Shown here piece after piece: positions 2,320 to 61,014 of a DNA stretch of 61,016 bases (within the stretch, counting starts at the first letter, position 1; each line of letters begins with the position of its first letter). The DNA comes from an uncultured Prevotellaceae bacterium (lineage in GTDB: Bacteria; Bacteroidota; Bacteroidia; Bacteroidales; Bacteroidaceae): positions 1 through 61,016 of the forward strand of contig CACWMK010000040.1 of the NCBI GenBank assembly GCA_902761905.1, in the 5' to 3' direction. Position numbers and translations under genes: made by a program. The notes beneath the pieces were generated by a model. It was not told the origin of the DNA, made no database searches, and worked only from the letters and a program-made list of their open reading frames with translations.

Positions 2320-3348
2320 ATGATATCATTTGAATGTGATTACAACAATGGGGCACATCCCAAGGTATTAGACAACCTCATCAAATACAACGATGCGAAA
2401 CCTACACCATACGGTTTTGATGAGTTTAGCGAGCGCGCAAAAGAGCGCATCCGCGTAGCCTGCGGACTGCCTGATGCCCAGATTTTCTTTCTGACTGGCG
2501 GTACCCAGACCAATGCCACCACCATCGACTCGATGCTATATCAGTACGAGGGTGTGATTTGTGTTGGCAGCGGTCATATCAACGTACACGAGGCCGGTGC
2601 CGTGGAGTTTACCGAGCACAAAATCATCACCATCGCCGACAACAACGGCAAGATGGAGGCCAAAACACTCGACAAGTATCTCGACGACTATATGCACGAT
2701 GGCAACAAGGACCACGCAGTACACCCTGGACTGGTTTACATCACATTCCCCACCGAGTTCGGAACCCTTTATACAGCCAAGGAGCTCGACGACATCTACC
2801 AGGTATGTCAGCACTATGAAATACCACTTTATATAGATGGTGCCCGTTTAGGTTATGGCCTGATGGCCGAAGAGAACGATATCACCCTGCCCTATCTGGC
2901 CCGCCACTGCGATGTGTTCTACATCGGCGGAACCAAGATTGGCGCACTGTGCGGCGAGGCAGTAGTGTTTACTCACCAAAATGCTCACAAGCATTTCTTC
3001 TCTATCCAGAAACAGCATGGTGCAGTAATCGCCAAAGGAGCTCTTATCGGACTGCAGTTCGATGCTCTGTTCACCGACGACCTCTACTTCAAGCTCTCTG
3101 AACATGCCATCAAGATGGCTATGCGCATGAAGCAGATATTCATCAAGAAAGGCTTCGAGTTCTATGTCGACTCACCCACCAACCAGCAGTTTGTAATTAT
3201 GGACAACACACTGGTTGAGGCACTGAGTCAGAAGATGAAGTTCACTCATTTCGGTCAGACCGATAAGTATCATACTATCTGCCGCTTTGTAACTAGCTGG
3301 GCCACAACCAGCGAGGAGCTCGATGAACTTGAACAGATTCTTGGCTGA
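2320..3348 (+). CDS. ltaE: Low-specificity L-threonine aldolase (PLP-dependent)
   Basis: 342-residue cytoplasmic fold-type I PLP enzyme of the threonine aldolase/beta-eliminating lyase family, cleaving L-threonine or L-allo-threonine to glycine and acetaldehyde. Visible marks are the N-terminal FECDYNNGAHPKVL segment, a GGTQTN phosphate-binding loop, the IDGARLGYG strand with the PLP-ring Asp, and the IGGTKIGALCGEA segment with the Schiff-base lysine. The length is normal for the family. The start is the ATG at 2320: the longer frame begins inside the promoter. It is preceded by a good -7 box and followed 37 nt later by the GH9 gene, so the two may be co-transcribed. There is no obvious metabolic link to polysaccharide use; it is probably a housekeeping gene caught between PUL genes. 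Confidence 0.9.
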   Translation: MISFECDYNNGAHPKVLDNLIKYNDAKPTPYGFDEFSERAKERIRVACGLPDAQIFFLTGGTQTNATTIDSMLYQYEGVICVGSGHINVHEAGAVEFTEHKIITIADNNGKMEAKTLDKYLDDYMHDGNKDHAVHPGLVYITFPTEFGTLYTAKELDDIYQVCQHYEIPLYIDGARLGYGLMAEENDITLPYLARHCDVFYIGGTKIGALCGEAVVFTHQNAHKHFFSIQKQHGAVIAKGALIGLQFDALFTDDLYFKLSEHAIKMAMRMKQIFIKKGFEFYVDSPTNQQFVIMDNTLVEALSQKMKFTHFGQTDKYHTICRFVTSWATTSEELDELEQILG

Positions 3349-3385
3349 CAAGACTATGATATTACCAACCAATAAAACAATAACA

Positions 3386-5743
3386 ATGAAAAGAAATCTC
3401 TTCGCAGCGCTTACAGCAGTCATGCTCGCACTGCCTGCCAACTGTTTGGCAACAAAACTCTTAGGAGTAAAAGTTATCGACAAGGACTATCTAATGGTCC
3501 ATTTCCGCGATGGCGAAGTACACTATCGCGACAACGGCACTGGTCCCAGTGCTTATCTAGGGCATTCATTCTCTGAAGGCGACGACACGCTGGTGGTATT
3601 CGGCGAGAAACTCAAGGCCGAAGTAGCCCAGAAGGTCGGACTGTGGACTATCACATCGGCCGACGACAAAGCATTCGGCAAGGCTCAGCCCCTGGCCGTT
3701 TGGCGCAAGTCAAAGCCAATGAACTTCGACAACACACTTACTGCCGAACTAGACCATTGGCTGTTTCTGCAACTACCCAAATCGATGAAACAGGGTTGCA
3801 CATATCGGGTAGCTATCCCTGCTGGTATAGGCACCGATACTAAAGAGACATCGATCCGTTTCGACATCTGGAACTGTATGTCGGAGGCTGTTCATGTAAA
3901 TATCATCGGTTACTCACCACTCGAGGCCAAGCACGCTGCCGACCTGTATCAGTGGTTGGGCGATGGCGGACAGCGCGACTATAAATCACTCGAAGGCAAA
4001 GGCGTGTGGCTCTACAACGTCAACACCAAGAAGAAACAGAAGGTGGGCACCGTAAAGTTCTGGCAGCCAGCTTCAGCATCGGCCAACGAAGCAGGTGGCA
4101 AAAGCCTCATCGGTACCGATGTATGGAACATCGACTTCAAGTCTACCAAGCCAGGTTGCTATCGTCTGGTAGTAGAGGATGTAGGCTGCAGCATGGACTT
4201 CGAGATCAGAAACGACATCTACTACGAGCCATTTCGCTATTCTGTTCGCGGCTACTACTACATGCGCCTTGGCGAGCCCATCGACCCAGCCCATGTTACC
4301 CCCATACCACGTCAGCCTCAGTTCATTCCCGAGACCGATCCTAAGGGCTTCACTGTATATAAAACCGACTTCCATCCTTGGAGCCCAGGTTGGCGCGAAC
4401 TGCACACCGACGTATGGGACGAGCCCCACTTCAAGCAGCTCAAGCAGTCTATCTTCTGGCAGCACCGTCTGCCTGGCAACCCTGTAAACCTGGATGTAAA
4501 GGGCGGACACTCTGATGCATTCGACTGGGACCGCCATCTGGCTCACGTCAGCAACATCTACGACATGCTGTTGCCATACATCCTTTCGGGCGGCAAGCTC
4601 AACGAAGACCAGTTGGGTATCCGCGAGAGCGGAAACGGCATACCCGACCTCCTAGACGAGGCCCGCAACGAGGTTGACTTCTTCCTATCCATCCGCGATG
4701 GCGAGGCTTACTCGCAGGGTGTTACCAATCCTTGCAACGACTGGAGTGTCATGTTCCAGGCAGGCTGCACCACCATGGCAGCATGGGCCAACGCAGCCAA
4801 CTGTGCCATTATGGCCGAGGCATTCCGCCTGAACCATAACGACTCTCTGCGCCAGTACTATACCGACGAGGCTATCAAGGCCTTCCGCTTTGCTTCGCGT
4901 CAGGACAATCAGCAGCTCGACGATCTGCAGGACGTAGGTTCTATGCAAATGCGTGGCCGCGACTTCCGTCAGATGGCGGCCGCATTCCTCTACAACCTCA
5001 CAGGCGACGAGCAGTGGGAGCGACTGATGGTCGACGAGAGTATGATTAAGGACGCCAAGTCGCAACTGTTCAGCAAGGGCCGTCACGGGTTCTTCGGCGT
5101 AGGTGTGATGCACGAGGAAGGCAAGAATCTGGTTCCATTCTGCCAGTATTGGGCTGCAGCCGCTTACCTCACTTGTCCGCAGCCTCGCCACTACGGCGAG
5201 TTCTATCAGAACCTGAAGGCTTGTGTAAACGCTCAGGCTAAGGATTACAACTATGGTCATGTAGCCAATCGTCCCAGCCGTCGTGCTGCTAACGATAGCC
5301 GTTGGCAGACATCACAGAATGTACAACTGGTAATGCTGGCCCACTATATCGCCGACAAGGCCACCCGCAAACAGCTTGAGAACATCATGTATACCGAGGC
5401 AGGTTGGGCACTGGGCCGCAACCCAGGCAACATCGTTGAGATGACAGGACTGGGCGAGCGCCACATCACCGACGTATACTCTACCGGCCGCAACGATGGC
5501 GATCCAGGCACACATCCTGGTCAGACACCATTCAACGGCACCGAGACATGGTCGCCCGGCCACAATGGTGGCGATGCCCGCGAGATACTAAAGTACTGCT
5601 ATCCCGACTGGAACAATGGAGGCTGGCCCCGTCAGGAGTCGTACTTCAACCAGCGCTACTTCTGGGTAAACGGCGAGTTCACCCCACGCGAAACCATGCG
5701 TGGCAAGATGGCTCTTCTGGCTTACCTTTATGCCATCAGATAA
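3386..5743 (+). CDS. Glycoside hydrolase family 9 enzyme with N-terminal Ig-like domain
   Basis: 785-residue exported protein. The ATG at 3386 opens a signal peptide (MKRNLFAALTAVM... ending near NCLA); the longer frame has no signal. Residues about 25-290 look like the beta-sandwich that precedes GH9 modules (CelD-type N-terminal domain). From about 295 the (alpha/alpha)6 GH9 module begins at SVRGYYYMRLG. The catalytic DAxD motif is at about 375-378 (SDAFDWDRH), followed by GIPDLLDEARNEVDFFL. Further on are GRNPGNIVEMTG and a C-terminal Glu in GEFTPRETM as candidate acid. GH9 enzymes are mostly endo-beta-1,4-glucanases. In this locus a role on the glucose-containing backbone of glucomannan or on xyloglucan is inferred. 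With no lipobox, a periplasmic location is likely. It ends before a hairpin terminator. Confidence 0.8.
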   Translation: MKRNLFAALTAVMLALPANCLATKLLGVKVIDKDYLMVHFRDGEVHYRDNGTGPSAYLGHSFSEGDDTLVVFGEKLKAEVAQKVGLWTITSADDKAFGKAQPLAVWRKSKPMNFDNTLTAELDHWLFLQLPKSMKQGCTYRVAIPAGIGTDTKETSIRFDIWNCMSEAVHVNIIGYSPLEAKHAADLYQWLGDGGQRDYKSLEGKGVWLYNVNTKKKQKVGTVKFWQPASASANEAGGKSLIGTDVWNIDFKSTKPGCYRLVVEDVGCSMDFEIRNDIYYEPFRYSVRGYYYMRLGEPIDPAHVTPIPRQPQFIPETDPKGFTVYKTDFHPWSPGWRELHTDVWDEPHFKQLKQSIFWQHRLPGNPVNLDVKGGHSDAFDWDRHLAHVSNIYDMLLPYILSGGKLNEDQLGIRESGNGIPDLLDEARNEVDFFLSIRDGEAYSQGVTNPCNDWSVMFQAGCTTMAAWANAANCAIMAEAFRLNHNDSLRQYYTDEAIKAFRFASRQDNQQLDDLQDVGSMQMRGRDFRQMAAAFLYNLTGDEQWERLMVDESMIKDAKSQLFSKGRHGFFGVGVMHEEGKNLVPFCQYWAAAAYLTCPQPRHYGEFYQNLKACVNAQAKDYNYGHVANRPSRRAANDSRWQTSQNVQLVMLAHYIADKATRKQLENIMYTEAGWALGRNPGNIVEMTGLGERHITDVYSTGRNDGDPGTHPGQTPFNGTETWSPGHNGGDAREILKYCYPDWNNGGWPRQESYFNQRYFWVNGEFTPRETMRGKMALLAYLYAIR

Positions 5744-5875: not shown

Positions 5876-8800
5876 TATTCCGAAGGTAGACATCCATACT
5901 CATCCTTAAAGTATTTAGAGAACTGCTTAGGTGAGAACCCGACAGTATAGGCCACCTCAGATATGTTGGTACGTCCTTGATCCAGCAAGGCTTTGCCTCG
6001 TTTGATACGGATAGTACGAATGAACTCGATAGGCGATTTGCCTGTAATGGCCATCAGCTTCTTGTAAAGATGACCACGAGACAAACCAACAGCTGCACCA
6101 AACTCCTCAACCGAGAACTCCGAATTGTTCATCTGCTCTTCAACAGCCTTGATTGCTTTCTCAATCAGCTCCTCATCAAGCGAGCTGACAGTTATCTCAC
6201 TGGGGGCTATCTCCGGCTTTTCGCTGAAAGCACGATGACTGTTGGCAGTCCACTCCAGAATTTTTTGAATACGCAGTTTCAATATACTGAGATTGAAAGG
6301 TTTGGTGATATAATCATCAGCACCATCCTTCAAACCTGTGATAATATTATCCTCGGTGGACTTAGCCGTGAGCAGGATAACCGGAATATGCGAGAAACTG
6401 ATGTCGGTCTTGATTCTATTACAGAGTTCAAGACCATTCATCTCAGGCATCATAATATCGCTGATAACGATGTTGACATGACTGACAGCCAGTACTTCAA
6501 GTGCATCTTTGCCATTGGCTGCCGTCAGAACATGATACTGATCGTTAAGACATCGCTCCAAGAACATGCAGAAATCATGGTTATCCTCAACAATTAGAAT
6601 GGTGGTCTTGTCTTCTGGTTTTACAATCTCGCCTTTGACATCTGATGCACCAGTTGGCACAATAGAGTTGCTTTCTGCATGAGTATTTCCTACTGGTATC
6701 GTTATGGTAAATACCGTTCCTTGCGGATGATTATCCGCTACAGCAATCTCGCCTTGATGCATGGCAACATACTCTTTTACGATATGCAGTCCGATACCAC
6801 TACCGATATACTCTGTGTCGTTTGACTCTTGATAAAAACGATCGAAAATACGATGTTTATTCTCATCTTTAATACCGATGCCCGTATCAGCTATCTGCAG
6901 TACCATGTTCTGCCCCTCCCGACCTACAGTCACAGAAATACTGCCTCTTACAGAGTTGTATTTGAAAGCATTCGAAAGCATATTCATCACCACCCTGCGC
7001 ATCTTACTTTGGTCGAAATCCATCTCGATGCTGGGTGAATTGATTTTCAGATTCATCACCACCCCCCGACTCTCTGCGTAATACTTGAAACTTTCGACAA
7101 TCTTACGCAGGAACTCGATGAAGTCACCATGCGACAGATGCAGTTTCTCATTACCTGCATCAAGCTTTCGCATATCAAGCAGTTGTGTTACCTCGTCCAT
7201 CAACATGCGCGCATTGCGCCACACCAAATCCAACTCTACCCTTATAGATTTCTCCAGCTGGCCTGCCAGTAGTTTCTCCAGGGGGGTGATGATAAGCGAC
7301 AACGGCGTCTTCAAGTCATGACTGATATTGGTAAAGAACCTCATCTTGTTGGCCTCCATCAGGTATTGCTGCTCCAGCTCCATTTCCAACTTCTGCTGTG
7401 CGAGCATCCTCTGATGCTTCTTTTGTAGCTGACGAAGATATAGATACACACCGATGATTATCAGCAGTAGGTAGCAGATATAAGCAGACATAGAGCGCCA
7501 GAAAGGCGGTTTTACATGAATGCATAGCACCGATGGCTCGCTGGTCCACCCGCCCAGATCGGTAGCCTTCACTTCGAGCGTATAGGTTCCTGGAGCCAAC
7601 GCATTAAAGTTGATACGATTGCCTGGCAGAGCTATCCAACGGTCGTTCACCTCTCGCAGACGGTACAGATAGTGTATCTTGTGCTTCTTGTTATAGTTCA
7701 TGGCCGACACATCAATAGAGATATTATTCTGATCGTAGCTAAGCGTTATGCTATTTGACAATTGTAGGTTACGATTCAAAATGCCACTCTTATCACCAAC
7801 CTCTATCGGCTGATTTCCAACAATAAGCGCTGTAAACATGATATGCGTAAGAGGATAGTCGGTAGGCAACAAATTATTCTTGATTCTTATAAGACCATTA
7901 TTGCTTCCAATCAGGCACACACCTGTTGATGTCAGGCACACAGCATCGTTGTTGAACGCCGCTTTTTCCAACCCATCTTCCTCGAAAAAGGGTATACACA
8001 CAAAGGAATAGCCCCCATCATCAGATTTAGTGGTTTTGACAAATGTTAAGCCATTATCAGTACTAACCCACATATTCAGCTCCCTATCACCTAGAACAGC
8101 CCTGACAAAGTTATTCGACAGGCCATCCTCCTCAGTAAGTGAGAACAGTGTATCGCGAGCTTCATCATATATTTTCAGACCAGTACGGGTGCCGATCCAT
8201 ACCAATCCCCTTTCATCCTTGTCGAGCGAAGTAATAAAATCATCTGTCAGCTTCTGCGTGCTGCTGTTCTGCTCACGAAAAGCCTTTGCTTTGATATCGA
8301 AGACATAAAAGCCTGTACTTGTGCCTACATACAGGTTGTTATGATTGTCACAGTGCAGACTGGTAATACTGCTTGTACGCAGCACAGAGTTATCCATGGT
8401 GTAATGTGCCGTAGTACCATCTGAACACAAACAAACGATGCCGTTATTGATAGTACCCAACCATAGATTCCCATATTCATCCTCGGCCATACAGCGCATG
8501 AATGTTGCTGCAGCACCTGCAGTCTGATATTTCACGAATTGCCGTCCATCGAAATACAAGATACCATCTCCATAGGTACCGATCCACAGGCGACCTGCAT
8601 GATCGGTCAACGAACATGTCACCAAATTAGAAGCAAGATTACCCTTCGCTTTATTATAGTAGGTGAGGCTGCCCGTCATTGTCATCATGGCTATTCCTTC
8701 GCCATCGAATCCTATCCAAAGGTTTCCTTTCGGATCTTCAGCAATACAGCTAATGTCTTCGTTACCTTGAAGTCTTGTAAGTTCGAAGGAATGTGGAGTC

Positions 8801-24998: not shown

Positions 24999-27405
24999 AT
25001 GAAGAATCTTAAGAGATTAGCCCTTGCATGCAGCATGCTGGTGATGCTGACGCTGGGCATCACGGCTCAGACAAGTGTACGTGAGACCATCCGACTGGAT
25101 CAGGGATGGAAATTTGCCTTCGGAAATGCCGCCGACCCGAAAAAGGATTTCGGATGTGGTACCGAACGAGGGGCCTTACGCCATGAAGTTCAATGATGCA
25201 GACTGGCAAGAGGTAAGCATTCCCCACGACTGGGCTACTACTCTACCCTATGCCCCTGAAGCCAGTCACTCGCATGGCTATAAGACCGTGGGGTATAAAT
25301 ATCCCGAGACCAGTGTTGGCTGGTATCGTAAGGTTATCAACATCCCTGCCAATGATGAGGGCAAGCATATCTCCCTGAGGTTCGATGGCATCTTCCGCAA
25401 TGCACGTGTGTGGTTCAACGGCTTTTATATGGGCACAGAGCCCAGCGGCTATGCCACCCAGATATACGATGTAACTGAGTATGTAAACTACGGCGGGCAG
25501 AACCTGATTTGTGTGCGTGCCGATGCTACCCTCGAAGAGGGTTGGTTCTACGAGGGTGCAGGTATCTATCGCGATGCCTGGCTTACCAAGACTTCCGCCG
25601 TCAGCGTGGCACCCTTCGGCACATTTGTATATGCCGACATAAAACAGCCCTACACATCGGCCACCATTCACATCAATACCGAGATAAGCAATCACTCGCT
25701 GAAAGCAACAACCTGCGAGGTAGAGCAGCGACTCTTGGATGCTGAGGGACATGAGGTAGGCAAGACCACCATAGCCACCATCACTTTAAGACCAAAAGAA
25801 ACCAGCGACTGCAAACAGACTCTATCGCTGCAGGCGCCACATCTGTGGAGTACCACCGATCCGTATCTATACAAGGTAGAAACAACCGTTAAGGTGGATG
25901 GCCATGTGGCTGATGTGTATGAGACAACCACCGGTATCCGAGATATTGCTTTCGATGCCGACAGAGGTTTCCTGCTAAACGGCCAACCCCTGAAACTGAA
26001 GGGTGTAAACATGCATCAGGATCATGCCGGCGTAGGAGCAGCCATTCCCGATGCCCTACAGGCATGGCGCATTAAGCAACTCAAGCAGTTTGGCTGCAAT
26101 GCCTACCGTGCATCGCATAACCCCATGACGCCTGCTCTACTCGACATCTGCGATCGCGAGGGCATACTCGTCATCGAAGAGAACCGCCTGACCGGTATCA
26201 ACACCGAGCATCAGCGCCTCTTGGCAAACATGATTAAGCGCGACCGTAATCACCCCAGCATCATTCTTTGGAGTGATGGCAACGAAGAATGGGGGATAGA
26301 GAACACCATCCAAGGCACACGTATAGCAGCTGCCATGCGTGAATACACCCGTCTTCTCGACCCCACGCGCCCATCTACCATCGCCAATGCCGGCGGTACA
26401 GAGATGATAAAGGGACTCGACGTGGTAGGATTCAACTACATTGTGCAGAATGATGTAGACAACCGCAAGAAAGCTAACCCTTCGTGGAAGATTGTGGGAA
26501 CAGAAGAGACCACCGGCTGCGGCACACGCGGCGTTTATTTCAACTCGCCTCAGCAGACTGGACGCATGGTAAGCATGAACCGCGACACTACCCACCACCA
26601 CATAGAGAATGTGATTGAACGTGGCTGGAAGTTCTATGCCGAACGACCTTGGGCAGCAGGACTGTTCTACTGGACCGGTTTCGACTATCGCGGTGAACCC
26701 AACCCGCTCAGTTATCCCGCTACCGACTCTGAGTTTGGCATACTCGACTACTGCGGATTCTGGAAAGACGAGGCGTGGTATCTTAAATCGTGGTGGACCG
26801 ATGAGCCCACGCTCCACATCTTCCCCCACTGGAACCTGAAGGGTCATGAAGGCGAAGAGATAGAGCTGTGGGCCTATAGTAACTGCGACGAGGTGGAACT
26901 GACTGTGAACGGCAAGAAGCTGGGCCGCCAGCCCATGCCTAAGAATGGTCACCTGAAGTGGAAGGCCGTTTATCAGCCAGGCAAGGTGGTAGCAACAGGC
27001 TATAAAAACGGTAAGCGCATCCTTACCGAGACCATTGAGACCACTAAGCCATCCTACAAGATTGTAATGAAATCCGACCGCACCGCCATTACTGCAGATG
27101 GTCGCGACGTGGCCATTGTAACTGTAGAACTTCAGGATCAAAAGGGGCGCATCGTTCCTGATGCCTGCCAGATGCTCACTATGCACCTAGACGGTGACGC
27201 CCATATACTTGGTGCAGGCAATGGCGACCCTTCGTATAACGGCGAAGATCACCCCAAGAGTAAGTACTGCCGAGAGTTCAGCCTACCTGCCTTTAACGGT
27301 CTGGCGCAGTTCATCATCCAGAGTGGTCACGCTCCATCGACCATCACACTCAGCTGCACCTCAGAAAAACTAAAAACGGGGAACCTCCGTATTGATACCT
27401 TTTAA
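24999..27405 (+). pseudogene. GH2 glycosidase (beta-galactosidase/beta-mannosidase type), frameshifted near the N-terminus
   Basis: Frame 1 (24999-25196) encodes the start, signal peptide (LTLGITAQ) and the first GH2 strands (IRLDQGWKFAFGN...KKDFGCGTE), then runs to a TGA. The rest is open in the +1 frame to 27405, picking up at NEGPYAMKFNDADWQEVSIPHDW. The switch falls between about 25155 and 25185. That second frame carries a full GH2 body: jelly-roll, Ig-like domain, the TIM barrel with acid/base in GNEEWG and candidate nucleophile in GTEET, and C-terminal DUF4982/Ig-like parts. GH2 relatives I know usually have about a dozen more residues between DFxxGT and the GP...FDD..W segment, so a small out-of-frame deletion is as likely as a 1-bp error. 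If real, the product lacks its signal peptide or is not made. An ATG at 25183 could restart translation without export. Confidence 0.8.
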
Positions 27406-27410
27406 GAAAA

Positions 27411-27499
27411 ATCCACCAATCTACCACCAATCTTCCGAAATACCTGTGTTTATACGGGCTGGCGAGGTGGTGGTAGATAGGTGGTAGATGGTGGATCTG
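27411..27499. repeat. Left arm of a roughly 90-bp imperfect inverted repeat
   Basis: This arm matches the reverse complement of 27719-27809. The inner core, from ACCTGTGTTTATACGGGCT through the GGTGGTAGAT repeats, has about one mismatch in 50. The arm itself folds: ATCTACCACC (27419-27428) pairs perfectly with GGTGGTAGAT (27469-27478). It starts 5 nt after the GH2 stop. Confidence 0.9.
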
Positions 27500-27559
27500 C
27501 ATGGAGCCAAGATATACCATCTAACATTAATAGGTTAATAAGATATACTCGAAAGTGCG

Positions 27560-27669
27560 TTTTCTTTGGGAGAAAACGGCGTTTTCTCAAGGAGAAAATA
27601 GTATTTTCAGGCTGAGAAAACAATATTTTCTGCCGCAGAAAACGCTAGTTTCTGCCGTAGAAAACGATT
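27560..27669. repeat. Five 22-bp tandem palindromic units
   Basis: Units start at 27560, 27582, 27604, 27626 and 27648, exactly 22 bp apart. The consensus is TTTTCT, 5 variable nt, AGAAAAC, 4 variable nt. Each unit is a small hairpin with a variable loop (TTGGG, CAAGG, CCG and so on). Units 4 and 5 share the CTGCCG loop region. The array lies centrally between the two inverted-repeat arms. No protein is encoded here. Confidence 0.92.
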
Positions 27670-27718
27670 AACAGTAAAAACATTAAGCAACCAGCCTCAG
27701 CCTTCGGACGCATGCTTT

Positions 27719-27809
27719 CAGATATCTACCATCTACCACCTATCTACCACCACCTCGCAAGCCCGTATAAACACAGGTGCTTTGAAGAGTTGGTGGTAGA
27801 TTGGTAGAT
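27719..27809. repeat. Right arm of the roughly 90-bp inverted repeat
   Basis: Reverse complement of 27411-27499 with a few mismatches, mostly in the outer part. It contains ATCTACCACC-type motifs and GGTGGTAGAT in the opposite order, so it can also fold on itself. With the left arm it delimits an element of about 400 bp. Confidence 0.9.
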
Positions 27810-28078
27810 AAAAAGCAAAAACAAAAACACCACGGTGAGATCTAGTGAGATACTCATCGGTGGCGGATATCTAGAATTTGACATTTAGTAATAGTACTTA
27901 CACAATGTGTGTTTTATTTACATTTATTAGCAAAAACAGCAAATTATCAAGGTGTTTTTGATACACCTTTACCCTATTTTTGGCATTTTTTACGTATTTT
28001 AAATGTTAAAAATGAGGTTAGAGCAAAAAAGTATCAGCATTTATCAAACAAAAGTATTATATTTTATTAAGAAATGCT
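27810..28078. other. AT-rich intergenic region with candidate operator sequences
   Basis: No open frame of note. Visible structure: a direct repeat GTGAGAT at 27835-27841 and 27845-27851 (10-bp period), a short palindrome ACACAATGTGT at 27900-27910, and AAGGTGT / ACACCTT arms (27949-27955, 27963-27969). Any could be a binding site for the AraC-type output domain of the HTCS protein. None is proven. Confidence 0.4.
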
Positions 28079-40187: not shown

Positions 40188-42446
40188 ATGAAACGATTAT
40201 TACTTATCATCTGTGCAGCTTGGGGGATGCACGCCTCAGCGCAGATTCAGACTAACGCAGGTGTACAGTATCTGCAGTGTATGCAAAAGGACATGTCGAC
40301 AGACTTCTATGACCTGTCGAACACCTATTTCTTTGCCGACTCGCTGGTGTGTTTTGACACAGCTAAGGGCGAGGGACTGGTACAATGGAAACGATACAGG
40401 ATGAGTCCACGACAGGCGTTCAACCTGAACGGTTACTGGCCTGTACGTATGCAACAGTTGGATTTCCCCGATGCGGCATACGACAACGATCCGAACCTGA
40501 AGATAAAGATTGAGTTCATAACACCAAGAACAGCACGCATACGCATGCTGACAACTCCGGTGGAGCCAAAGAACAATGATCAGGAAGATGTGATGTTCTG
40601 TGACGGATTCAAGGCCAAAGGCAAAGGACAGATATGGAACACCTATCAATCAGCAGATGCCATAACATATAGTTCTGCTTACGGAACCATTGAGATAAAG
40701 AAGTATCCATGGCGACTGGTGATTAAGGATGCCAAGGGCAAGGTGCTGACACAGACACGACACATCATCGACAACGACTCATCGCAGGTCAAGCTGCAGC
40801 CATTCTCGTTTATCAAGCGCGGTAGCGACAACTCGCGTAGCATCAACCCCGTGCTGACTCTGGCACCAGGCGAGCGTATATATGGTTGCGGAGAATCATT
40901 CACATCTCTTAATAAGGTGGGACAGAAGGTGCATCTGAGTGTGACCGACCCACAGGGACCTGAGACCGACGGACAATATAAGCCCGTGCCATTCTTCTTC
41001 TCAAACCGCGGCTACGGCATCTTTATGCATACCTCGGCACCTGTTACCTGCGACTTCGGTGCATCATACATCGGAGCAGACCGACTGTTTATGGCCGACG
41101 AGCAGATGGACTTCTTTGTATTCTTCGGCGAGCCAAAGGACATACTGTATGAATACACAGAGATTACAGGCAAGTCGCCACTGCCCCCACTGTGGAGCTT
41201 TGGTACATGGATGAGTCGCATAACCTACTTCTCGCAGAAGGAGGGACTGGAAATAGCCCGCCAACTGAGAGAGCACCGCATACCTGCCGATGTAATCCAC
41301 TTTGACACGGGATGGTTTGGCACCGACTGGCAGTGCGACTATCAGTTTGCCAAGGACAGATTTGAAAATCCAGTGAAGATGCTGAAGCAACTGGCTAAAG
41401 ACGGATTCCACACTTGCCTGTGGCAGTTGCCATACTTCACACCGAAGAACCGTTTCTTCAGCGAGATTATTGAGAAAGGTATGCACGTAAAGAACGCTAC
41501 TGGCGGCATGCCTGTAGAGGATGCAATACTTGACTTCTCTAATCCCGAGACCGTAGCTTGGTATCAGCAAAAGATAGATGGGCTGATGAAGCAAGGTGTG
41601 TCGACCATCAAGTGCGACTTCGGCGAGGCTGCGCCTTACAACGGATTCTACCATAGCGGCAAAGGCGGATTGTACGAGCACAACCTCTATCCGCTGCGAT
41701 ACAACAAAGCCTTGTGGGAGGTTGTTGAGCGCAATCATCCAGGCGAGGGTATCATCTGGGCCCGTAGCGCATGGGCTGGCAGTCAGCGCTACGCACTGCA
41801 CTGGGGTGGAGATGCCGCTACCACAAACACTGGTATGCTGGGCGACCTGCGAGGTGGACTGAGTTTCGGTCTCAGCGGATTCTCATTCTGGAGTCATGAT
41901 ATGGGCGGATTTGTCACTGCATCGCCCGAGGATATCTACCGACGCTGGTTGCCATTCGGATTCCTGAGCAGTCACACGCGTGCCCACGGAGCCCCTCCAA
42001 CAGAGCCATGGCTCATCTCAGAGTCGTTTACCGATGCATTCCGCGAATGCGCCGAGATGAAATACAAGTTGATGCCATACGTATGGGAGCAGGCCAAGGA
42101 GTGCTCAAAGCTGGGACTGCCAATGGTGCGTGCGCTGCTGGTAGAGTTCCCACACGACCAGGGCGCGTGGTATGTGGAGGATGAGTATATGTTCGGTTCG
42201 AAGATGCTGGTAGCACCCCTGCTTGAGAGTGGCAACAGCCGCAACGTATATCTGCCCAAAGGCAAGTGGATTGACTACCAGACAGGTAAGGTATACGAGG
42301 GTGGATATCAGACCATCGAAGCCGGCAAGATTCCATGTATAATACTGGTTAAGGATGGCAGTGTGATACCACACGCACCACTGGCGCAGCGCACCGATCA
42401 GATAGACTGGAACGCAGTAGTGAACAAGGAATATAAAGCGAATTAA
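40188..42446 (+). CDS. GH31 glycosidase, alpha-xylosidase-like
   Basis: 752-residue exported enzyme with signal peptide MKRLLLIICAAWGMHASAQ (SPI, so periplasmic). It has an N-terminal beta-sandwich, then the GH31 (beta/alpha)8 barrel from about 335 (PLPPLWSFGTWMSR). The substrate-site strand is HFDTGWFGTDWQCD, the nucleophile is Asp477 in IKCDFGE, and the acid/base is Asp542 in LHWGGD. The KxDFGE and HWGGD forms resemble YicI-type alpha-xylosidases rather than GH31 alpha-glucosidases. Xylosidase activity is likely but not certain, and alpha-glucosidase remains possible. It has its own promoter and is the last PUL gene. Its stop overlaps the stop of the convergent NigD-like gene by 4 nt with no hairpin between. 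Confidence 0.85.
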   Translation: MKRLLLIICAAWGMHASAQIQTNAGVQYLQCMQKDMSTDFYDLSNTYFFADSLVCFDTAKGEGLVQWKRYRMSPRQAFNLNGYWPVRMQQLDFPDAAYDNDPNLKIKIEFITPRTARIRMLTTPVEPKNNDQEDVMFCDGFKAKGKGQIWNTYQSADAITYSSAYGTIEIKKYPWRLVIKDAKGKVLTQTRHIIDNDSSQVKLQPFSFIKRGSDNSRSINPVLTLAPGERIYGCGESFTSLNKVGQKVHLSVTDPQGPETDGQYKPVPFFFSNRGYGIFMHTSAPVTCDFGASYIGADRLFMADEQMDFFVFFGEPKDILYEYTEITGKSPLPPLWSFGTWMSRITYFSQKEGLEIARQLREHRIPADVIHFDTGWFGTDWQCDYQFAKDRFENPVKMLKQLAKDGFHTCLWQLPYFTPKNRFFSEIIEKGMHVKNATGGMPVEDAILDFSNPETVAWYQQKIDGLMKQGVSTIKCDFGEAAPYNGFYHSGKGGLYEHNLYPLRYNKALWEVVERNHPGEGIIWARSAWAGSQRYALHWGGDAATTNTGMLGDLRGGLSFGLSGFSFWSHDMGGFVTASPEDIYRRWLPFGFLSSHTRAHGAPPTEPWLISESFTDAFRECAEMKYKLMPYVWEQAKECSKLGLPMVRALLVEFPHDQGAWYVEDEYMFGSKMLVAPLLESGNSRNVYLPKGKWIDYQTGKVYEGGYQTIEAGKIPCIILVKDGSVIPHAPLAQRTDQIDWNAVVNKEYKAN

Positions 42447-56487: not shown

Positions 56488-56495
56488 CAAAGATA
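56488..56495 (-). promoter_or_regulatory. -7 box for folP-cdaA
   Basis: TATCTTTG on the minus strand is an exact TAnnTTTG match, only about 8 nt before the folP ATG. The mRNA would be nearly leaderless. Confidence 0.55.
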
Positions 56496-56506
56496 CAAAT
56501 TAATTA

Positions 56507-56586
56507 TGAATTAAGAGTTAAGAGTAAAGAAAAACAGCCTCTATCATACATTTTTTCTTAATTCTTAACTCTTAACTCTTAACTTT
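56507..56586. repeat. Inverted TTAAGAGTTAAGAATTAAG repeats between folP and murF
   Basis: GAATTAAGAGTTAAGAG (from 56507) and CTTAATTCTTAACTCTTAAC (to about 56584) are inverse copies around a roughly 40-nt middle and could form a long AT-rich hairpin. Same family as the spacers at 45311 and 53817. Confidence 0.7.
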
Positions 56587-56590
56587 TCCT

Positions 56591-56598
56591 TATCTTTG
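56591..56598 (+). promoter_or_regulatory. -7 box for murF
   Basis: TATCTTTG is an exact TAnnTTTG match, 20 nt before the murF ATG, directly after the repeat. Confidence 0.6.
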
Positions 56599-60941: not shown

Positions 60942-61014
60942 CGGGATGTAGCGCAGTTGGTAGCGCACTACGTTCGGGACGTAGGGGTCGGGCGTTCGAG
61001 TCGCCTCATCCCGA
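60942..61014 (+). tRNA. tRNA-Pro, anticodon CGG
   Basis: The 73-nt cloverleaf folds fully: acceptor CGGGATG / CATCCCG, D-arm GCGC / GCGC, anticodon stem CTACG / CGTAG with loop TTCGGGA (anticodon CGG), and T-arm GGGCG-TTCGAGT-CGCCT. The discriminator is A. CCA is not encoded (ACA at the window end). Confidence 0.96.

Follow-up and report, generated by a model that had tools for sequence, protein, structure and literature searches.

An inverted-repeat element between carbohydrate gene clusters of an uncultured Prevotellaceae bacterium: a probable internally deleted copy of a mobile element with a primase-helicase gene

On balance, we favor the explanation that the inverted repeat at positions 27411-27809 of the analyzed DNA (61,016 nucleotides from an uncultured Prevotellaceae bacterium, hereafter the window) is a non-autonomous, internally deleted copy of a mobile element of the Prevotella group, which would be replicated by its own initiator from its arms. 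Related loci and genomes are referred to below by L and G numbers, respectively.

The inverted repeat was confirmed and is far stronger than chance would produce. Read as one palindrome, it surpasses every other inverted repeat of the window, and the two arms that had been predicted were recovered as ungapped stretches of 86 nt, 88% complementary to each other and separated by 227 nt (Table 1). Only one further inverted repeat in the window was listed at E <= 1e-3, at 56488-56598. This is a 111-bp self-palindrome, 70% matched, located between diverging ORFs. The arms of the element are nested: the outer units are of the ATCTACCACC type and the inner ones are the reverse complement of these. 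This symmetry was significant in both arms (p = 0.005, against 200 shuffles), in agreement with the original prediction that each arm folds on itself. The inner part of the arms is nearly identical, as had been noted, but the "about one mismatch" given for 50 bp was slightly generous, the alignment containing 2 differing positions over about 55 bp. The palindromic array with a spacing of about 22 nt was confirmed by repeats at 27552 and 27574 and by palindromes within 27557-27666, and the element does begin 5 nt after the stop codon of the GH2 gene (ORF 25075-27405). The claim that the element lacks coding capacity holds in that no intact gene is present in its approximately 400 bp; scraps of two genes, DUF6078 and VapE, had however been overlooked.

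Table 1. Features of the window element and of the hairpin repeat next to it.
Feature	Position	Strand	Remarks
Left arm	27411..27496	+	86% identity to L110 4203-4288, 85% to L011 5005-5090; outer iterons ~27411-27429, core TACCTGTGTTTATACGGGC region ~27441-27466, inner inverted iterons ~27467-27496
DUF6078 scrap	27497..27538	+	LHGAKIY joined to HLTLIG + stop; 27495-27517 matches L110 4703-4725, 27513-27566 matches L110 4849-4903
Palindromic array, period ~22 nt (TTTTCT....AGAAAA)	27557..27666	+	97% identity to L110 4894-5001
Former leader just 5' of the VapE start codon	27667..27685	+	27579-27685 matches L110 4894-5001
VapE 3'-end scrap	27686..27721	+	Limits approximate apart from 27698-27721 (24 nt), which is identical to L110 6730-6753 and L011 7556-7579
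Right arm, reverse complement of left	27724..27809	-	27722-27827 matches L110 6833-6938 (92.5%)
Dispersed hairpin repeat adjoining right arm	27830..27864	.	Pattern at 27834-27860; copies in L011, L029, L110

As RNA, the element folds with an energy of -210.8 kcal/mol; 100 shuffled versions averaged -96 kcal/mol (sd 4.96), which gives z = -23. This very stable fold and the position directly behind the GH2 stop codon are what would be expected if the stem acted locally as a terminator, 3' stabilizer, or attenuator between GH2 and the SusC operon, and the same gene in G375 has, by eye, its own 3' hairpin, which is missing in the window. We consider such a local regulatory or RNA element very improbable as the explanation, because the DNA has a clear origin as mobile-element scrap and was unmatched in Rfam at the gathering threshold, where the sole match in the window was a tRNA (60942-61014). 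The suggestion that the element is the source of a large structured RNA is likewise unsupported, given the Rfam result and the loss from the window of the promoter region located behind the left arm in the full element. The mobile-element scrap may have a secondary regulatory use.

The origin of the element became apparent from a DNA search of the genome to which the window belongs, which returned two relatives: L011 on contig 2, which is longer, and L012 on contig 43, which consists of an arm and an array. The arms of L011 (5003-5095 and 7656-7748) enclose a gene coding for a 159-aa DUF6078 protein and a gene coding for a 607-aa BT4734_N-VapE-DUF3874 protein, with the array separating the two; the remaining ORFs of at least 60 aa inside these arms overlap the two genes or an arm. 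Locus L110 of uncultured Prevotella RUG295 (G438) has the same layout, and its VapE protein is 94% identical. In both loci, the proteins (PF19555 and PF08800+PF05272+PF12990) are encoded inside arms of 93-116 nt, and the full element measures about 2.75 kb. The window aligned with L110 in collinear pieces, namely an arm (27411-27496), the middle of DUF6078 (27495-27517), the end of DUF6078 with array and leader (27513-27685), the VapE 3' scrap (27698-27721), and the other arm (27722-27827). The order of arm, DUF6078 scraps, array, VapE scrap, and arm is the same in the window, L110, and L011. Therefore, the window element is, on sequence grounds, an internal-deletion derivative of the 2.75-kb element. 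Arm-to-arm conversion in the window copy was considered and is unsupported, as the identities do not separate that reading. The hairpin repeat (GGTGAGATCT...CTCATCGG) is also found at L011 7770-7796, at L029, and at L110 6977-7003 and 9764-9790; it adjoins the right arm in the window, L011, and L110, occurs elsewhere without a nearby arm as well, and is probably separate from the element.

An orthologous copy of the window element (L280) adjoins the same SusC flank in G438 and has different internal deletions, the window retaining 17 nt more of DUF6078 and 49 nt more of the array, and G438 retaining 79 nt more of the VapE end. The MITE-like character proposed originally is borne out: the window element is noncoding and arose by internal deletion from a longer element bounded by these same arms, and comparable gene-less copies are present at other loci in other genomes. 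The term "non-mobile remnant" suits the window copy, in view of its ortholog beside the same SusC flank, but not the family as a whole. The window copy probably no longer moves by itself.

Eighty named loci were retrieved with the L011 VapE protein. A DUF6078 match was present at 60 of the 80, and some inverted repeat surrounded VapE at 57 of the 80 under a lax criterion. Under a strict criterion (arms of 50-200 nt, E < 1e-3), applied to the 68 loci of the 80 with sufficient flank, an inverted arm pair was found at 44 of the 68 VapE loci, from Prevotella and its kin, and in none of the 64 control intervals taken from the same loci. These elements form a family with a conserved architecture, and a full member would read arm, DUF6078, palindromic array, primase/helicase gene, inverted arm; in the smallest full members, the primase/helicase gene stands alone between the arms. 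VapE matches at E <= 1e-60 occurred in 176 of the 398 genomes of the genus sample, a figure that says nothing on arms, and DUF6078 was detected in 35 of 100 relatives, 1 of 41 sampled genera, and 1 of 14 control genomes (Bacteroides ihuae). An arm pair surrounds VapE at locus L291 of B. finegoldii and is absent around VapE at plasmid locus L289. At L167, the entire element is nested in a second inverted repeat (3500-3859 / 7966-8327; 360 bp, 81% identical). A viral origin was considered and rejected, as a pattern scan of viral_contigs gave 148 stretches with no relative among them, and the plasmid (61) and phage (405) records gave matches below 60% identity only. In the open-licence literature, no description was found of a VapE element with such ends or of DUF6078, and the family appears to be a little-described one of gut bacteria.

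The primase-helicase of the element resembles the SaPI initiator PriRep1. For the relatives L011 and L110 and their alignment, a profile search matched PDB 7pds (E 2.3e-11), and its best structural match was PriRep1 with dsDNA (E 1.2e-16). According to PMC6092414, a PICI origin lies directly 3' of its initiator gene and is built from an AT-rich region with an iteron set on either side. Several points of this PriRep-ori arrangement (PDB 7pds; PMC6092414) recur here: L011 and L110 code for a VapE-type primase-helicase initiator, of which the window copy has only a scrap, iteron sets flank a spacer, one copy directly adjoins the 3' end of the initiator gene, and the iterons are particular to each element. 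In contrast to the PICI/SaPI origins as that description presents them, the ends of the element are two inverted copies, the second one at the 5' end, and the spacer is not AT-rich. The test for an AT-rich origin centre in the arms was likewise negative. Furthermore, no integrase, Stl-type repressor, or packaging gene was found among the ORFs between the L011 arms, and the total length is about 2.7 kb.

The two arms of an element are matched to each other. Over 51 elements, the median likeness was 0.56 between arms of the same element and 0.17 between arms of different elements (1275 pairs), and the best 6-mer of the left arm was found in the right arm of its own element in 45 of 51 cases, against 557 of 2550 for the right arms of other elements. 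Counted in both orientations, the iteron 6-mer reached 3.9 copies per arm compared with 1.87 after shuffling, and nested symmetry was present in 87 of 102 arms. The VapE proteins of L110 and L111 are 89% identical, yet their iterons (CTACCACC against a TGCCACC type) and array units differ by eye. A role of the C-terminal domain as the iteron reader was considered and is unsupported. Taken together with the likeness to PriRep, the arms may be origins: the BT4734-type primase and VapE helicase protein would recognize the iterons of each arm, open the DNA, and prime replication from two facing origin-like ends.

Copies of the family are dispersed at unrelated loci, as the original prediction had envisaged for a mobile element. 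Gene-less copies lie on four separate contigs of G450 (L307-L310) and in Segatella copri strain Indica (L240 in G042). L307 was identified by matches to both arms of L152, and L308-L310 additionally by self-comparison; L309 and L310 have one flank in common. Intermediate states were also found, with DUF6078 kept and VapE reduced to residues 577-605 (L247) or with large gaps in VapE (L284), and L280 of G438 is a further gene-less or gene-deleted copy. In the pairs L167/L173, L175/L177, and L112/L113, homology stops at the arms, and in L167/L173 the flanks differ on both sides right at the element ends; in L152/L157, homology continues up to about 100 bp beyond the arms. Other pairs with long common flanks are probably orthologous. 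The genome of the window contains one other gene-less copy only, which is partial (L012 4047-4275, arm and array without genes) and is shared by G000, G295, and G438. Its presence at the same place in G295 and G438 indicates that it is old in the group. Such inheritance is what would be seen if the family were a largely immobile relic, old and mostly inherited, whose inverted repeats attract rearrangements and whose flanks are altered by shuffling of host DNA. The common flanks of many pairs and the window copy itself, whose ortholog in G438 adjoins the same sequence on the right but another one on the left, fit this as well. We nevertheless find it quite unlikely, in view of the four gene-less copies on separate contigs of G450 and of pairs such as L167/L173.

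The window element has most of the features of a MITE, being noncoding and about 400 bp long, with paired 86-nt terminal inverted repeats and an internal deletion from a longer, putatively autonomous parent. That gene-less copies at several loci have paired arms, and that homology in several pairs is confined to the unit, would also suit an ordinary MITE, in which the arms serve as the terminal repeats used by a transposase from another locus, VapE and DUF6078 being passengers or regulators of the full element. However, the suggested search for target duplications was negative over 57 elements, with a longest common flank word of 3.0 for matched and 2.94 for mismatched flanks; the power of this test is reduced by uncertainty about the precise ends of the elements. 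The differing arms of L110 and L111 would be odd for one transposase, and the ORFs within the L011 arms offer only DUF6078, VapE, and overlapping frames. An ordinary MITE is therefore, in our opinion, unlikely. BrickBuilt, a MITE of Porphyromonas gingivalis, is described in PMC4596501 as having 12-nt IS5-family-like terminal repeats and no parent gene left. It shares with the window element, as do other P. gingivalis MITEs in that description, a noncoding sequence, inverted ends, and an internal minisatellite of 22-23-nt units, but the arms here are about 86 nt and nested, and a full gene-bearing parent is known. The 12-nt IS5-like ends and 23-nt repeats of BrickBuilt, in the form in which PMC4596501 prints them, were absent from the window element.

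No clean empty site was found with the flanks of L151, for which the relatives are not close, of L012 and L011 (32 genomes), of L113 (12 genomes), or of L152 (6 genomes). The nearest is the L011 site in G295, where the left flank matches up to L011 4997, about 42 nt match again near 7737, and the sequence is then divergent. G295 lacks the L011 element but retains a stretch resembling an arm end, so that the two genomes differ in the presence of the element although the site in G295 is not cleanly empty. For elements replicated by their own initiator, the extra copies might insert elsewhere with no recombinase dedicated to the task, host enzymes perhaps contributing through the repair of hairpins or replication forks. 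A full element would serve in trans to replicate gene-less copies that keep both arms and the array, such as that of the window. In line with this, neither the arms nor the array have been lost from the window copy, L240, or L307-L310.

The position of the element relative to the carbohydrate gene clusters was compared among relatives. In G375, homology to the GH2 side of the window ends at 27412, after which its own hairpin follows; homology to the SusC side begins at 27906 in G295 and at 27905 in G174. G438 has this element and SusC side too, but what precedes them there is, instead of GH2, a homolog of the window GH9 gene (90% over 2296 nt) together with a scrap of 52 nt that resembles the 3' end of an ATPase gene. 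G174 has, by eye, an arm-like stretch with the same CCCGTATAAACACAGG core at the corresponding place. From these flank comparisons, the left end of the element coincides with a rearrangement breakpoint between carbohydrate gene clusters, and the proposal that it sits where two separate PULs may have been joined is upheld. A VapE scrap seemed by eye to stand beside the arm-like stretch of G174 and was not supported by tblastn. Several other observations were made around these clusters. An ATPase_2-type gene or scrap adjoins elements in three genomes (L011 7808-9265, L255 5417-6841, and L280 ~2786-2838), and carbohydrate clusters are shuffled among relatives (L253 and L254 compared with window 3300-5743 and 27906-49210). 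The SusC block of G295 is divergent to the homolog of the GH31 gene at 40188, and a GH5 scrap and a GH9 scrap follow GH2 in G375.

The array between DUF6078 and VapE in the full element appears to go with the DUF6078 gene. At least 3 hairpins were present within 150 nt downstream of 49 of 58 DUF6078 genes, compared with 31 of 398 other ORFs. Among 11 armed elements without DUF6078 that were inspected by eye, seven (L124, L127, L128, L133, L134, L138, and L140) have only a short leader with a TATCTTTG-like motif, a promoter motif of Bacteroidota, and no array. At L066, L067, L072, and L074, where no VapE gene was detected, DUF6078 is followed by tandem palindromes with a period of about 22 nt. 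DUF6078 without a detected VapE gene and without a clear array was found at L061, L063, L068, and L073, and DUF6078 lies outside the arm pair at L060 and L062. In REP/RAYT systems, a gene is accompanied by arrays of palindromes. The present arrangement is similar in this respect, but the gene here is DUF6078, whose protein matched DUF6078 and no other family in Pfam and gave no clear match in a fold search. DUF6078 might be a DNA-binding regulator of the array.

More tentatively, and with considerable doubt, these elements might represent a recombinase-free class of mobile element, in which one PriRep-type initiator lies between inverted iteron-bearing origins that are also the ends, spread occurs by replication only, the origin sequence drifts fast without the two ends losing their match, gene-less copies undergo replication in trans, and DUF6078 with its private array is an accessory regulator that also occurs apart. 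If our explanation is true, palindromes and rearrangement breakpoints across Prevotella and Segatella genomes would gain an identifiable parent with a replication gene and two origin-like ends, and recombinase-free mobility driven by a replication initiator would become directly testable. The natural series from full to initiator-only, gene-less, and single-arm forms would be a means of studying the emergence of MITE-like DNA, and the DUF6078 genes with palindromic arrays of their own would become a defined problem. It would also provide a reason for the joining of carbohydrate-utilization loci at such sites.
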